DNA from: Isosphaera sp. | Lineage (GTDB): Bacteria > Planctomycetota > Planctomycetia > Gemmatales > Gemmataceae | Assembly (NCBI GenBank): GCA_013822345.1 | Contig: PNKH01000033.1 | Span: forward strand, 1-64,000 | Reading direction: 5' to 3' | Length of the DNA: 64,000 bases | Shown: piece by piece, positions 10,492-61,980 of the stretch | Layout of the letters: every line of letters starts with the position of its first letter | How positions within the stretch are numbered: position 1 is the stretch's first letter | Program-made: the position numbers and the translations under genes | The notes under the pieces: model-generated | Seen by the model: the letters and a program-made list of their open reading frames with translations, nothing else | Databases searched by the model: none | Told to the model about the DNA's origin: nothing

Positions 10492-10980
10492 GTGGCCGTC
10501 GTCGTCTACCCGGCCGCCCTCTATCCGCAGCTCCGGGCCTGGGGTGAGGTTGCGATCGGCCTCGGGCTGGGCGCCGCCTTTACCAGGGCTCTTCGGGAAA
10601 TGGACGGCCGCCTCCGCGCCGGCCCGGAGGCGTGGGGCGACCCGCTCTGGGATGTCCGCGGCCTCCGGCTGACGGTCTACCACCGGTACGGACCGGTCCT
10701 GGTGGTTCGGTACGCCGTCTGCTCGGTTGAAACCCTCCGGTCGGAGGCGGTTTTCGGGAGGGCGAGGCTCCTGCCGAGCCTTAGCTTCGGCTCGGCGGGA
10801 GCCTCGCCCTCCCGGCCCACCGCCCTTCCCCCCAGGATTTCAACGGAGTCGGAGATGGAGGCGATTCCACCCGGACGGATGAAATGGGGTTGTAGCATGG
10901 ATGATGGCCGGTGTCGTGCCGTGGTCGTTGATTGCTTGGTGCCGTCGTGCCCGAGACAGAGTCGGACCCGGACGCCGTGA
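10492..10980 (+). CDS. RelE/ParE-like hypothetical with repeat-encoded tail
   Basis: The GTG start gives a 162-residue product. Residues 1-87 have the size and ending of a RelE/ParE-type toxin (LREMDGRLRAGPEAWGDPLW, then LRLTVYHRYGPVLVVRYAV). From about residue 88 the frame runs into the family A palindrome (FGRARLLPS...GSAGASPSR) and then into the left flank of the IS110 element. The tail therefore looks like a readthrough product after loss of the native stop. It follows a candidate antitoxin by 9 bp. It could be an inactive remnant. Confidence 0.45.
   Translation: MAVVVYPAALYPQLRAWGEVAIGLGLGAAFTRALREMDGRLRAGPEAWGDPLWDVRGLRLTVYHRYGPVLVVRYAVCSVETLRSEAVFGRARLLPSLSFGSAGASPSRPTALPPRISTESEMEAIPPGRMKWGCSMDDGRCRAVVVDCLVPSCPRQSRTRTP
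10755..10814. repeat. Inverted repeat, family A
   Basis: 26-bp arms (10755-10780, 10789-10814) with one mismatch and an 8-bp loop, read in frame within the tail of the preceding ORF. Confidence 0.93.
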
Positions 10981-11074
10981 GGCACCCCGATCTGGGCCGA
11001 GCGCCCCGTGCCCGCGTGGGAGACTCCACACACCGCCGGCGTCCGCACGCCACCGGCCGACCGGAGGAGTTCAC
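10870..11074 (+). ncRNA. Possible IS110 bridge RNA region
   Basis: This is the 5' non-coding end of the IS110 element. Known IS110-group elements express a structured RNA from this end that specifies target and donor DNA. I did not identify its loops; the assignment rests on position and family only. Confidence 0.35.
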
Positions 11075-12328
11075 GTGGATACCTCGCTCTCGGTCGTCCT
11101 CCCCATCTGCTGTGGCATCGACGTCCACAAGAACACGCTGACCGCCTGCCTGCTCACAACGGGTGCCTCGGGCGAGGTGGTCCAGGACGTCAGGACGTTC
11201 CGCACCGTGACTGCCCAGCTCCAGGAACTGGCCCGCTGGCTCCGCGGCGCCGAGTGCCCGACCGTTGCCCTGGAGAGTACCGGCGTCTACTGGAGGCCGG
11301 TGTTCAACGTCCTGGAGCCGGCCGGACTGGAGGTCGTGCTGGCCAACGCCCAGCACGTCAGGAACGTGCCCGGTCGCAAGACCGACGTCAAGGACGCCGA
11401 GTGGCTCGCGACCCTGTTCCGGGTCGGGTTGCTGCGGGGCAGTTTCGTCCCGCCCAAGGAGATCCGCGAGTTGCGTGACCTGACCCGCTACCGCACGCAG
11501 GTCATCCGCCAGCGGGCTCAGGAGTGCAACCGCATCCAGAAGCTCCTGGAGGACTGCAACATCAAGCTGGCCGGGGTCGCCACCGACATCCTGGGCAAGA
11601 GCGGCCGAGACATGCTGGAGTCTCTGGGCCAAGGGATCGACGACCCCAAGCGACTGGCCGATCTGGCCCGGGGGAAGTTGCGGGCCAAGATCCCCGCGCT
11701 GGAAGAGGCCTTGCGGGGCGTGCTGAGCGGGACCCAACGCTGGTTGTTGCGGGAGCAGTTGCACAAGGTCGCGGAGCTGGACGAGGCCATCGAGCGGTTG
11801 GACGTCAAGGTGGCGGAGTCGTGCCTCCCTTTCGCGGAGGCTCTGGCCATCCTGGACCAGATCCCGGGTGTGAATGCCCGGATCGCTCAGATCATCGTGG
11901 CGGAGATCGGTCTGGACATGACTCGGTTCAAGACGGCATCGAACCTGGCGAGTTGGGCGGGGATGTGCCCGGGTAACCGACGGAGCGCCGGCAAGTCGCA
12001 GGGCGGTAAGACCCGCAAGGGCAACGGGTGGCTGCGTCAGGCGCTGGTGGAGGCGGGTTGGGCCGCGAGTCGGAGCAAGGGGACGAGTCTGTCGGCGACG
12101 TACCACCGCCTGGCGGGTCGTCGCGGCGGGAAGCGGGCGTGCCTGGCGGTCGGCCATCGGATCTTGCGGATGGTGCACAACCTGTTGTCGAGTCATCGGC
12201 CGTACCAGGAAGGTGGCATCGACTACTACCGCCCGACGGACACGGACCGTCTCAAGGACAAGCTGGTCCAACGGCTCCGCACGCTGGGCTACGCCGTAAC
12301 CATCGCGGCCGCCGAGACGGCCGCGTAA
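11075..12328 (+). CDS. IS110 family transposase/recombinase
   Basis: A 417-residue DEDD-type recombinase. The N-terminal RuvC-like domain has GIDVHK (D16), ALESTGVYW (E67) and [11 protein letters not shown] (D104, D107). The C-terminal transposase-20 domain has [15 protein letters not shown] and the serine-containing motif [14 protein letters not shown]. The GTG start at 11075 has GGAGGAG at 11063-11069; the upstream frame is open but is non-coding IS sequence. All catalytic residues are present and the frame is intact, so it may be active. Confidence 0.95.
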
Positions 12329-14838: not shown

Positions 14839-16547
14839 CCGACGACCGCGACGCGCGGCTGGCCGCCGCGCTCGAGACGCTGGACGCGGACGCCCGGGCC
14901 GGCCGGCCGGCGGACGTGGACGCCGCCGCCCGCGCCCACCCGGACCTGGCCGCCGAGCTGCGCGAGCTGTGGGCCGTCGCCCAGTTCGCCCACCTCGCCC
15001 GCCGGCCGCCCGCCCTCCCCCTCACCGTGTCGTACGCCGGCGACGCCGCGACCACGACCACCACCGCCCCGCCCCCGCCGCGGGCGTTCGGCGACTTCGA
15101 GCTGATCGAGGAACTCGGCCGCGGCGGGATGGGGGTCGTGTACAAGGCCCGGCAGCGGAGCCTGGACCGGGTCGTCGCCCTGAAGATGGTCCGCGAGGCG
15201 CACCTGGCGACCGACGCCGACCGCGCCCGGTTCCGCACCGAGGCCGAGTCCGCCGCCCGGCTCGAGCACCCGAACATCGTGACCGTCTACGAGGTCGGGA
15301 CGGCCGACGGGCAGGCGTACCTGTGCATGGAGTACGTCGGCGGGCCGACACTGGCCGAGCGGGTCCGGGCCGGCGGCCCGCTCCCGCCGCGGGAGGCCGC
15401 CCGGCTCGTCGCCGTCATCGCCCGGGCGGTCGACCACGCCCACGCCCAGGGGATCCTCCACCGCGACCTGAAGCCGAGCAACATCCTGTTGCAAGTGGGC
15501 AGTGGGCAGTGGGCAGTGGGCAGTGAAGACAAGACGGCGGTGTCCTCTCTGCCCACTGCCCACTGCCCACTGCCCACTCCGAAGGTGTCCGACTTCGGCC
15601 TCGCCAAGAAGATCGACGGGTCGCTCAGCCTGACCCGGACCGGGGCGGTGGTCGGCACCCCGTCGTACATGTCCCCGGAGCAGGCCGCCGGGCGCAAGGA
15701 CCTGACCCCGGCCGCCGACGTGTACTCGCTCGGGGCGGTGCTGTACGAGCTGCTCACCGGCCGCCCGCCGTTCCAGGCCGCCCACCCGGTCGACACCCTG
15801 TTGCTGGTGCTCGAGCAGGAGCCAGTCCGGCCGCGCGACCTGAACCCGCTCGTCGACCGGGAGCTGGAGCTGATCTGCCTGAAGTGCCTCCAGAAACCGG
15901 CCGAGCTGCGGTACCCGACCGCCGCCGCGCTGGCCGCCGACCTGGAGGCGTACGCCGCCGGCGAGACGGTGACGGCCGCCCCGAGCGGGCTGCGGTTCTT
16001 CCTGTCGCGGCTGTTCCGGGAGACGCACCACGCGGACGTCTTGGAGAACTGGGGCAAGCTGTGGATGTGGCACAGCCTGATGATCTTCTCGCTGTGTCTC
16101 GTCACCCAGGTGATGCAGTGGTCCGGCCTCGACGACCACGTCTGGTACCTCGGGTTCTGGTCGGTCGGGCTGGTGACCTGGGGCGCGGTGATGTGGCAGC
16201 TGCGGAAGGCGGCCGGGCCGGTCCTGTTCGTCGAGCGGCAGATCGCCCACGCGTGGGCGGCGGGGGTGTGCGCCAGCATTGGGATGTTTGCGATCGAGTG
16301 GCTCGGCGGGCTCCCGGCGCTGACCCTGTCGCCGGCGGTGGCGGTGGCGGCCGGGATGGTGATGGTGTTCAAGGCCGGGATCCTGTCCGGCCGGTTCTAC
16401 GGGTGGGCGGCCCTGAACTTCGCCGCGGCGGTGGTGATGCCGCTGGTCCCGCGGGTCGGGATCCTGCTGTTCGGGGCGGTGTCGGCGCTGTCGTTCTTCG
16501 TCCCCGGGCTGAAGTACTACCGCCAGCGGAAGGCCCGGTCGGGGTGA
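14835..16547 (+). CDS. Membrane Ser/Thr protein kinase with in-frame palindromic insert
   Basis: A 570-residue protein. Residues 1-82 are an Ala-rich cytoplasmic segment. The kinase domain at about 88-375 has the glycine loop LGRGGMGVVY, K117, HRDLKPSN (catalytic D211), DFG at 253-255 and GTPSYMSPEQ. Residues 405-570 hold about six hydrophobic helices. Between NILL (219) and KVSDFG (250) there are 30 residues where kinases have about 6; codons 221-248 are an 85-bp inverted repeat. The insert lies before the activation loop, where extra residues may be tolerated. All key residues are intact. It is the last gene of the sigma factor operon. Confidence 0.93.
   Translation: MTDDRDARLAAALETLDADARAGRPADVDAAARAHPDLAAELRELWAVAQFAHLARRPPALPLTVSYAGDAATTTTTAPPPPRAFGDFELIEELGRGGMGVVYKARQRSLDRVVALKMVREAHLATDADRARFRTEAESAARLEHPNIVTVYEVGTADGQAYLCMEYVGGPTLAERVRAGGPLPPREAARLVAVIARAVDHAHAQGILHRDLKPSNILLQVGSGQWAVGSEDKTAVSSLPTAHCPLPTPKVSDFGLAKKIDGSLSLTRTGAVVGTPSYMSPEQAAGRKDLTPAADVYSLGAVLYELLTGRPPFQAAHPVDTLLLVLEQEPVRPRDLNPLVDRELELICLKCLQKPAELRYPTAAALAADLEAYAAGETVTAAPSGLRFFLSRLFRETHHADVLENWGKLWMWHSLMIFSLCLVTQVMQWSGLDDHVWYLGFWSVGLVTWGAVMWQLRKAAGPVLFVERQIAHAWAAGVCASIGMFAIEWLGGLPALTLSPAVAVAAGMVMVFKAGILSGRFYGWAALNFAAAVVMPLVPRVGILLFGAVSALSFFVPGLKYYRQRKARSG
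15494..15578. repeat. Intragenic inverted repeat, family L (AGTGGGCAGTGGGCAG)
   Basis: The left arm has four GTGGGCA units and the right arm four TGCCCAC units. The outer 30 bp pair perfectly and a further 7 bp largely pair. The loop is about 11 bp. It is read in frame within the kinase gene as residues such as VGSGQWAVGS and PTAHCPLPTP. Confidence 0.95.
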
Positions 16548-16588: not shown

Positions 16589-16749
16589 GCCCGCCAGGGG
16601 TTGCGCTCCGGGCCGTTGGCCCTGCGCTCCACCCCTGGCTACCGGCCGACATCCCTCCGGGACTCCCGCATGGAGCCGCGGAGCGGCGCCTGAGGGTAGC
16701 CAGGGGTGGAGCGCAGGGCCAACGGCCCGGAGCGCAACCCCTGGCGGGC
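16589..16749. repeat. Inverted repeat, family H (CCAGGGGTTGCGCTCCGGGC)
   Basis: Perfect 55-bp arms (16589-16643 and 16695-16749) around a 51-bp loop. A diverged copy is at 27870-28019. It is among the longest perfect palindromes in the window. Confidence 0.95.
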
Positions 16750-31220: not shown

Positions 31221-31313
31221 GAGAGGGGGTGAAGGGGTGAACGGGTGAGGGGGTGACCGAGACAACCCCGGTCTCGGTCACCCCCTCACCCGTTCACCCC
31301 TTCACCCCCTCCC
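31221..31313. repeat. Inverted repeat, family I variant (GGGGTGAACGGGTGAG)
   Basis: 43-bp arms (31221-31263 and 31271-31313) with one mismatch and a 7-bp loop, between two divergent genes. Confidence 0.95.
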
Positions 31314-44432: not shown

Positions 44433-44441
44433 CGCGGCATC

Positions 44442-44502
44442 CGTCCGAGCCCGAGCGCCAGCGAGGTGAGCGCCGACCCTCGCTGGCGCTCGGGCTCGGA
44501 CG
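44442..44502. repeat. Inverted repeat, family C (CGTCCGAGCCCGAGCGCCAG)
   Basis: Perfect 25-bp arms (44442-44466, 44478-44502), 9 bp after the carA stop. Relatives are at 54139 and 63885. Confidence 0.95.
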
Positions 44503-44521
44503 GGCGCCGCGCCCCTGGCCG

Positions 44522-54131: not shown

Positions 54132-54138
54132 GTGTTCG

Positions 54139-54203
54139 GGTCCGAGCCCGAGCGCCAGCGAGGGTCCGGGGCTGACCCTCGCTGGCGCTCGGGCTCGGAC
54201 CCG
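54139..54203. repeat. Inverted repeat, family C
   Basis: Perfect 28-bp arms (54139-54166, 54176-54203), 7 bp after the DUF4058 stop. The rest of the 313-bp gap to the next gene has only the promoter at 54333. Confidence 0.95.
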
Positions 54204-54332
54204 ATGCCGCGCCGCCCGCCCGGTTCGCAGCCCCGCGCGAAACGTCCGCCCCCCGCCGAACCACCTCCCGCCGCGGCCCGCAGTGTGTGCTATTTTTCAC
54301 GGTCGCGCCTGTTTCCCGAACCGCCCCAATTT

Positions 54333-60744: not shown

Positions 60745-61980
60745 ATGAGCCAGAAGAAGAAAAAGGTGCGGGTGGAGCTGCGGAAGAACCGGACCCGTCC
60801 GCCGCGGGACAACGACCTGACGCGGGCGTTCGCGGAGGACGCGGCCGGGTCGGGCGACGCCGCGTCGACCGAGCGGGTGCGGGCGAAAGGGGATGTGTCG
60901 CGCTATCGGACCGTGGTCCAGGACGACGGCGGGGCGGACGCCGGGATGCGGTCGGTGGACGCCGCGGAGTGTGTCCGCGGGCGGGTCCTGCGGGTCCACG
61001 GCCTGGCGTCGGTGGTCGAGGCGGACGACGGCCGAATCTTCCGTTGCGCCGTCCGCCGGCTGTTGAAGAGCCTCGCGTCGGACGAGCGGAACGTGCTCGC
61101 CACCGGGGACGTGGTGTGGCTGCGCCCCGCTGCCAGTGGCCCGTTGCCCGTTGCCCGTTGTTCAGACCCGGGTCTTGTGGACGCGGCCGGGGAACCGGGG
61201 AGCGACACCGAGCCGGCGGCCCAACAACTGGCCACTGGCAACGGGCCACTGGCCGCCGAAGGCGTGATCGAGCGCGTCGAGCCGCGGCACGGGGTGCTGA
61301 CCCGGGCGAGCCGGCGGCGGGAGCAGGTGCTGGTGGCGAACGTCGACCAGGTGGCGGTGGTGGTGTCGCTCGTCCAGCCGGACCTGAAGCCGCACCTGAT
61401 CGACCGGTACCTCGCGGCCGCCCAGATGGGCGGGCTGCGGCCGGTCGTCTGCCTGAACAAGATCGACCTCGCCGACCCGGCCGGGCTGCAGCCGCTGGTC
61501 GGGGCGTACGCCCAGCTCGGCATCCCCGCCCTCCTCGTCAGCGCCCGCACCGGGTTCGGCATCGACCGACTCCGCGAGCACCTGCGCGGCCGGGCGACCG
61601 TGTTCTCCGGCCAGTCCGGGGTCGGGAAGTCGTCGCTGCTGAACGCGGTGCAGCCGGGGCTCGGCCTGGCGGTGCGGTCGGTCAGCGAGGTGAACAACAA
61701 GGGCCGGCACACCACCACCTACGCCCAGCTGATCAGGCTGGAGACCGGCGGGTGGGTGGTGGACACCCCCGGCGTCCGGCAGTTGGAGCTGTGGGACGTG
61801 ACGCCCGGGGAGGTTGAGGGGTACTTCCCCGATTTCCGCCCGTTCGTGCCGCTGTGCGCCTTCCCGGACTGCACCCACACCCACGAGTCCGGGTGCGCGG
61901 TGAAGGCGGCCGTCGCCCGCCAGCAGGTCAGCCCCCGCCGGTACCACAGCTACCTCGGCCTGTTCCGCGGCCGGGAGTGA
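60745..61980 (+). CDS. rsgA: Ribosome small-subunit GTPase RsgA with palindromic insert
   Basis: A 411-residue circularly permuted GTPase that helps 30S subunit maturation. The OB-fold part is at about 70-128 (RGRVLRVHGLASVVEADDG). Permuted motifs are NKID (238-241), GQSGVGKSSLLN (289-300) and DTPG (340-343); the zinc site is CAFPDCTHTHESGC (C371, C376, H378, C384). Residues about 130-169 are encoded by an inverted repeat, where the family has only a short link between the OB fold and GVIERVEPR. Its N-terminus is lysine-rich. No ribosome-binding site; leaderless promoter. Confidence 0.95.
   Translation: MSQKKKKVRVELRKNRTRPPRDNDLTRAFAEDAAGSGDAASTERVRAKGDVSRYRTVVQDDGGADAGMRSVDAAECVRGRVLRVHGLASVVEADDGRIFRCAVRRLLKSLASDERNVLATGDVVWLRPAASGPLPVARCSDPGLVDAAGEPGSDTEPAAQQLATGNGPLAAEGVIERVEPRHGVLTRASRRREQVLVANVDQVAVVVSLVQPDLKPHLIDRYLAAAQMGGLRPVVCLNKIDLADPAGLQPLVGAYAQLGIPALLVSARTGFGIDRLREHLRGRATVFSGQSGVGKSSLLNAVQPGLGLAVRSVSEVNNKGRHTTTYAQLIRLETGGWVVDTPGVRQLELWDVTPGEVEGYFPDFRPFVPLCAFPDCTHTHESGCAVKAAVARQQVSPRRYHSYLGLFRGRE
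61132..61252. repeat. Intragenic inverted repeat, family M (CCAGTGGCCCGTTGCC)
   Basis: The left arm (61132-61162) and right arm (61222-61252) pair at about 26 of 31 positions; the first 16 bp are perfect. The loop is about 59 bp. It is read in frame within rsgA as residues such as ASGPLPVARC and ATGNGPLAAE. Confidence 0.9.

Follow-up and report, generated by a model that had tools for sequence, protein, structure and literature searches.

The window, by which we mean the whole stretch of 64,000 nucleotides analysed here, carries a gene for a Ser/Thr protein kinase whose open reading frame runs without interruption over its whole length (Table 1). The product matches the Pfam family Pkinase over residues 88-364 (1.8e-51), and its nearest relatives among solved structures are PknB; modelling predicts that a PknB-like catalytic domain precedes a C-terminal part that is helical and probably spans the membrane. 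An 85-bp inverted repeat (15494-15578) lies between the catalytic loop and the DFG motif of this domain. The window's other heptad-armed palindrome found by hairpin scan, composed of CCCGTTG units, is hosted in frame by the gene for the ribosome-associated GTPase RsgA.

Table 1. Positions of the two host genes and of the features within them, numbered along the window.
Feature	Position	Strand	Basis or remark
Ser/Thr protein kinase gene, 570 aa	14835..16547	+	ORF, Pfam, closest solved relatives PknB, structure model
Catalytic loop HRDLKPSN (H209-N216), intact	15459..15482	+	Sequence, invariant columns
Left arm, 4.6 perfect copies of AGTGGGC, translated VGSGQWAVGS	15494..15525	+	Sequence
Central core between the arms	15526..15548	+	Core and arm end together give the GAAGAC motif
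Right arm, 4.3 perfect copies of the complementary heptad, translated LPTAHCPLPT	15549..15578	+	Sequence
DFG motif (D253; 253-255), intact, frame unchanged	15591..15599	+	Sequence, invariant columns
RsgA ribosome-associated GTPase gene, host of an in-frame heptad palindrome	60745..61977	+	Pfam and sequence search
In-frame palindrome of CCCGTTG units in RsgA	61132..61253	+	Hairpin scan, in-frame reading

The preliminary description of this locus, made from the sequence alone, had reported the inverted repeat and its in-frame position between HRDLKPSN and DFG with catalytic residues and frame maintained, and these claims held, coordinates and anatomy being confirmed. The inverted-repeat score of the kinase loop was 32, far above that of 100 dinucleotide shuffles (7.0 ± 1.0, maximum 10). 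Arm pairing extends over 38 nt (95%) around a 9-nt loop, and an exact 13-mer occurs 6 times in the window, each time within the repeat (0.14 occurrences expected with one mismatch allowed). Folded as RNA, the palindrome reached -80.9 kcal/mol (z = -10.6). No Rfam family matched the element at the gathering score; the sub-threshold matches, nearly all to microRNA precursors, arise because of the hairpin shape, and assignment to a known RNA family was rejected. Residues H209, R210, D211, K213, N216 and D253 are retained and are invariant across 32 relatives. Compared to the 23-residue spacing between HRD and DFG in outgroups the net insertion is 24 residues, which corrects the "about 28" first proposed. 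In an AlphaFold2 model built from an alignment of 32 orthologues (the kinase being the only host modelled), the insert sits exactly between strands beta7 (217-220) and beta8 (248-251), the kinase fold is preserved, and pLDDT falls below 50 at residues 225-243; the alignment with PknB also has its gap at the beta7-beta8 turn. The model thus predicts that the insert is a disordered surface loop at a tolerant position.

The preliminary description had further stated that the same kind of element is otherwise intergenic in the window. This failed on two counts, since the AGTGGGC unit is absent elsewhere in the window and the CCCGTTG palindrome lies in frame in RsgA. We assessed the distribution of the unit by searching for its pattern and by sampling 464 kb of the window's genome, and the genome-wide counts are based on these two sources. 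The search for the unit in the genome, which had been proposed at the outset, showed it to be dispersed, with the AGTGGGC unit pair at about nine loci, mostly intergenic and some in frame. Intergenic copies have their arms in common and differ in their cores, often lie near gene ends, and in some cases hold a nested terminator-like hairpin in the core. At three intergenic loci (L105, L108 and L109) the AGTGGGC arms enclose a terminator-like core that is likely a transcription terminator. A second kinase-loop copy of this genome lies on contig C120, in a different kinase (54% identical) but at the very same loop. The repeat search alone returned kinase-hosted copies in the window, on C120 and at L116, a locus of another genus, and all three sit at the beta7-beta8 loop. 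None of the genomes without AGTGGGC repeats has AGTGGGC in a kinase loop.

The same element also occurs in proteins unrelated to kinases. A codon-usage scan of the family Gemmataceae and its relatives called 18 of 80 AGTGGGC elements in-gene, an automated upper estimate that includes three kinase loci that had been chosen as kinases. The in-frame hosts are polyphosphate kinase 1 (Ppk1), UbiD, GlnE, HemW, TilS, a ClpB-like ATPase, a GTPase, aconitase, an MMPL exporter and others, and the Ppk1 insertion is found at the same place in two species. Host names were read from translations, only the kinase and RsgA having been run against Pfam. The 464-kb sample contained 141 long hairpins, 9 of them in-gene by the codon-usage test, with hosts that include proteins reading as pyruvate carboxylase and PanE; two proteins of the sample carry an insert reading ANRDRQGAG...PLPDGRGS. 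For the heptad families we identified neither a transposase nor a target-site duplication.

To examine the frame of the loops we searched the loci at the DNA level without regard to frame. Long-loop kinases were found in 17 of 19 genomes of the genus, and 64 of 65 distinct long-loop matches were in frame, none with a stop; the single out-of-frame case is a chance internal GACTTCGG inside a longer in-frame loop. Of 79 long kinase loops, 33 were more palindromic than any of their 100 shuffles, and these palindromic loops were without exception in frame and stop-free (33/33). By arithmetic, a heptad gives one cyclic seven-residue peptide in any frame (VGSGQWA one way and LPTAHCP the other), and therefore the AGTGGGC element encodes the same peptides whatever frame it entered. 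GAAGAC is present in the core of 11 of the 33 palindromic loops, across different arm units (shuffles: mean 1.48, maximum 5), and as it occurs in two reading frames it is conserved as DNA and not as peptide. A group I or II intron or an intein would be removed from RNA or protein; here no Rfam family reached its gathering score, and the multiple-of-three, stop-free state of the loops argues for translation, which remains an inference in the absence of RNA, protein or expression data.

Alignment of orthologues, also proposed at the outset, revealed a long loop throughout the genus with content that is mostly unrelated palindromes. In the 17 congeners in which the region is intact, every orthologue has the long loop (17/17), most with a different palindrome. 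The spacing between HRD and DFG is 42-52 residues in the genus orthologues, which have 19-29 extra residues at the site, mostly from unrelated palindrome families; distant outgroups mostly have a short spacing of 23-27 residues, and 32 kinases of the window's own genome have the normal short loop. Besides AGTGGGC, the heptad units at the kinase loop are GCGGARC, GGCGGAA, GGATGAA, GTCGAAA and GCAGATT, with GGGGCGA and GCGGAAT in two further relatives, and two palindromes at congener loops are not heptad-based (GGCCGGTG and GCGGGGGGCG). Five congeners have a decayed or non-palindromic loop (G002, G006, G008, G012 and G017). The kinase-loop sequence of Gemmata sp. IIL30 (HG799470.1), a relative in the window's genus, matches that of G010, and a kinase in LR594585.1 has a palindromic loop reading AVGSGQWTVDRESRGSGSSLPTAHSPPPTHE. 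A sequencing or assembly artefact is excluded, since many genomes assembled independently have equivalent in-frame palindromes at this site, and the idea that this species recently acquired one insertion at an empty site was rejected because all intact congeneric orthologues have the long loop. The preliminary description had held that it would be refuted if orthologues had equally long but unrelated sequence at this place; this was literally met, yet the sequence is mostly other palindromic repeats, and therefore the genus has long had the expanded loop, the content of which has been repeatedly replaced. This replacement between species had been missed, and we rank it as the more important result.

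An orthologue tree built without the loop required at least 13 changes of unit family among the palindromic loops. An ordinary ancestral loop was for this reason rejected as a sufficient explanation, its length being common to the genus while its content changes family. Among close orthologous pairs in which the loops are palindromic, 62 of 75 had a loop identity below 0.6. In the pair G008 and G010, the flanking DNA is 97% and 96% identical and the loops are unrelated (44%) with no intermediate; G001, G004 and G015, with flanks 87-88% identical, have three different palindrome families. The converse was also seen, as two paralogous kinases of G007 (C465 and C301) have loops 88% identical, core included, on flanks of 67-68% identity, and the loops of the window kinase and its C120 counterpart (genome G000) are 82% identical on flanks of 66-67%. 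Diverged loops on near-identical flanks, together with shared loops on diverged flanks, demonstrate that the loop is inherited independently of its host gene. The loop behaves like a slot in which one DNA insert after another has been placed, unrelated repeats occupying the same spot in different species.

An alternative is that one ancient palindrome evolves in place, through heptad slippage and through template switching at the hairpin that rewrites one arm from the other. The narrow loop length, the recurrence of the GAAGAC core over unit families and the decayed remnants in some orthologues would be in favor of this possibility. However, it does not account for the dispersal of the same units in the genome and at other loci, for the wholly different G008 and G010 loops, or for the two families that are not heptad-based, and we regard it as unlikely.

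RsgA repeats the whole pattern of the kinase loop: one site, changing palindromes and some short sites. The RsgA site is palindromic, with different units, in 7 of 18 genomes of the genus (the window's genome included), and holds diverged inserts in most of the others; in G011 and G018 it is short, with 15 aa between the motifs, so that uninserted relatives exist. In G009, arms of AGTCAGG type enclose a second, different palindrome, which indicates nesting of elements. These observations bear on the proposal that gene conversion between paralogous kinases of one genome is the main means of loop exchange, with the conserved DNA for HRDLKPxNILL and PKVxDFG providing short homology and the loop between them being swapped. 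Gene conversion is supported by the G007 and G000 paralogues, which share the loop and its non-palindromic core on diverged flanks, and by a loop identity above 0.65 that is commoner within genomes (7/30 pairs) than between them (49/387). In contrast, it leaves unexplained the RsgA pattern, since almost all genomes yield only one full match to RsgA, as well as the in-frame copies in unrelated proteins and the same unit families in intergenic DNA; moreover, no excess identity just outside the loop relative to other paralogue pairs has been demonstrated. Kinase recombination as the only cause was rejected, as RsgA and other proteins behave alike. Gene conversion likely moves some of the loops, and the balance of evidence tips against it as the main route.

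Two further explanations were considered. The hairpin could be selected for a function at the RNA level, such as slowing of the ribosome between the halves of the catalytic domain or tuning of mRNA stability, in which case any palindrome would suffice and the families would be interchangeable. The very stable mRNA hairpin, the recurrence at one site in many species of palindromicity and not of sequence, and the recurrent hosts (kinases, RsgA and Ppk1) agree with this idea. Against it, the five congeners named above are not, or no longer, palindromic at the site, the short loop is normal in 32 kinases of the same genome, and the RsgA site is short in two congeners; we find such a function improbable. 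Site-specific integration would instead require a mobility machinery that recognises the sequence around the codons for NILL, making the loop a DNA target. In unrelated kinases the insertion point varies by no more than a few bases, TTG is the last Leu codon before the loop in 12 of 33 palindromic loops versus 6 of 46 other long loops, and two of the about nine copies of the genome are at the kinase loop. However, no common motif was visible by eye upstream of the intergenic copies inspected, and the sites in RsgA and other proteins differ in sequence, so this possibility appears remote.

Other palindrome families were also noticed. Directly downstream of the kinase, at window positions 16589-16749, lies a palindrome with 78-nt arms of the CCAGGGGTTGCGC... 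family. At G000:C75 (L296) a Y1_Tnp transposase gene lies between members of this family; the family therefore looks like a REP/RAYT pair. The Y1_Tnp genes at L300 (G000:C35) and L298 (G000:C14) adjoin palindrome families of their own, GTCGGAGCCCGAGCGC and GGCAGGCAGGAATGCC respectively, and the Y1_Tnp-adjoining families suggest the possibility of several REP/RAYT systems in one genome. The GTCGGAGCCCGAGCGC family resembles palindromes at window positions 44433-44511 and 54136-54204 and the nested one in the RsgA gene of G009. A family with 8-bp units (GGGGTGAA) is represented at window positions 31223-31311 and at L200, L210, L215 and L216; it is mostly intergenic, with one copy in frame in a protein reading as pyruvate carboxylase (L205 16166-16245). 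A non-heptad family (GGCGAACCGCGACCGTCAGGGAGCGGGTGTC), found at L213 7302-7379, L216 14270-14338 and L214 3206-3279, is in frame in at least two unrelated proteins, where it reads ANRDRQGAG...PLPDGRGS, and is read in another frame in an ABC ATPase. Judged by eye from its translation, an open reading frame at window positions 10901-12328 resembles an IS110-type transposase.

We compared the elements with known systems. Rickettsia palindromic elements (RPE; Ogata 2000, 2002) are short dispersed palindromic repeats of several families that lose identity over time; they sit in the reading frame of many unrelated protein genes, which survive the insertion (PMC10969869, PMC6649704). The elements described here share with them the dispersal of a palindromic repeat, also outside genes, the in-frame insertion in intact unrelated genes (Ppk1, UbiD, GlnE, HemW, TilS, aconitase, RsgA, pyruvate carboxylase, PanE and others) and, in the kinase model, the tolerant surface position. 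The initial suggestion of a protein-coding palindromic repeat akin to those of Rickettsia, in a planctomycete, is therefore supported, and the host phylum was right. The Gemmata elements differ in several respects: they measure about 70-120 bp, their arms consist in most cases of tandem 7-bp units, and they occur in Planctomycetota. Moreover, many unrelated families occupy a single protein site from species to species, a turnover for which the passages on RPEs in PMC10969869 and PMC6649704 gave no counterpart. Kinship in sequence with RPE families is unlikely, an inference drawn from the AGTGGGC heptad and the host phylum without comparison to any RPE sequence.

The STRR heptanucleotide repeats of filamentous cyanobacteria are tandem 7-bp repeats of unknown function, hairpin-capable and dispersed in intergenic DNA (PMC2670836). 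The Gemmata elements likewise consist of tandem 7-bp units able to form a hairpin. Their units, however, are paired in inverted orientation on either side of a core, and copies occur within genes of a planctomycete, in the reading frame of conserved proteins, whereas STRR belong to filamentous cyanobacteria and are mainly intergenic or in structural RNAs. Geobacter metallireducens has an element of four tandem heptanucleotides (GGGACCG) with 49 copies within and between genes (PMC2700814). It is one family, described as regulatory RNA elements, in contrast to the several families of Gemmata, and no protein-loop turnover was found for it in the bearing sections of that paper. REP/REPIN elements with RAYT (Y1_Tnp) are similar as small dispersed palindromes, and other palindrome families of the window's genome adjoin Y1_Tnp genes; the AGTGGGC unit, however, is absent from all five Y1_Tnp loci of this genome (0/5), so a RAYT-driven REP is not supported for this family, and direct reading revealed no GTAG or CGTC tag immediately flanking the arms of the kinase palindrome. 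In mitochondria of Nematomorpha, long perfect inverted repeats lie inside translated genes (PMC6649704), but those arms code for conserved residues and did not arise by insertion, while the Gemmata insert encodes an apparently dispensable loop. In the open-access literature searched, we found neither the AGTGGGC unit or its peptides in a bacterium nor any report of protein-coding palindromes in planctomycetes; subscription literature was outside the scope of the search.

The palindromicity of the elements, their dispersal, their in-frame and stop-free state, the identity of the site, their turnover independent of host-gene descent and their occurrence in unrelated proteins are shown by the data. 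The reading we favor, likely at a probability of about 0.7, is that mobile RPE-like repeats of several families repeatedly re-occupy tolerant protein loops. The insert would belong to a class of short palindromic repeats scattered over the genome, with tandem arrays of usually 7-bp units as arms and a variable core. Several such families, differing in unit, live in Gemmata genomes and would spread by an unidentified copying process. Copies landing in genes would survive only if in frame, stop-free and in a structurally tolerant loop, such as the beta7-beta8 turn of Ser/Thr kinases, which would have been re-occupied many times: an older element gives way to a newly arrived one, or to a loop copied over from a paralogous kinase, and the kinase itself is kept. 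After translation the insert would form a disordered loop on the protein surface, and a very stable hairpin would be present in the mRNA. Mobility by copying, a selfish or near-neutral nature and actual translation are inferred from comparison and not observed. Several points speak against this explanation. The heptad families have no identified transposase or target-site duplication, the five Y1_Tnp loci of this genome lack AGTGGGC, and RNA or protein data that would place the loop in the mature kinase are absent. In addition, two of the about nine AGTGGGC loci of this genome are kinase loops, though such loops are a tiny target. This share is above what mere tolerance predicts, suggesting that the site is preferred or that copies there are retained longer. 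A bolder reading remains possible, in which the kinase turn, together with one loop each in RsgA and Ppk1, would be dedicated exchange slots with active cassette swapping; the process might be site-directed insertion, or a loop-specific recombination that swaps palindromic cassettes at frame-compatible positions.

Protein-coding palindromes have been reported mainly from Rickettsia. They now appear in a different phylum, in large free-living genomes and in several families at once, with hosts that include conserved housekeeping proteins such as RsgA, TilS and Ppk1. For annotators and structure predictors the results are a caution, as these loops are not homologous between orthologues. The replacement of one family by another at the same codon, on flanks up to 97% identical, amounts to a natural replicate experiment that bears on how selfish repeats enter proteins, on which loops are tolerant and on whether random palindromic peptides gain function. 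If the bolder reading were true, the slots would constitute a system for rapid loop diversification in signalling kinases, and not the passive survival of selfish repeats.
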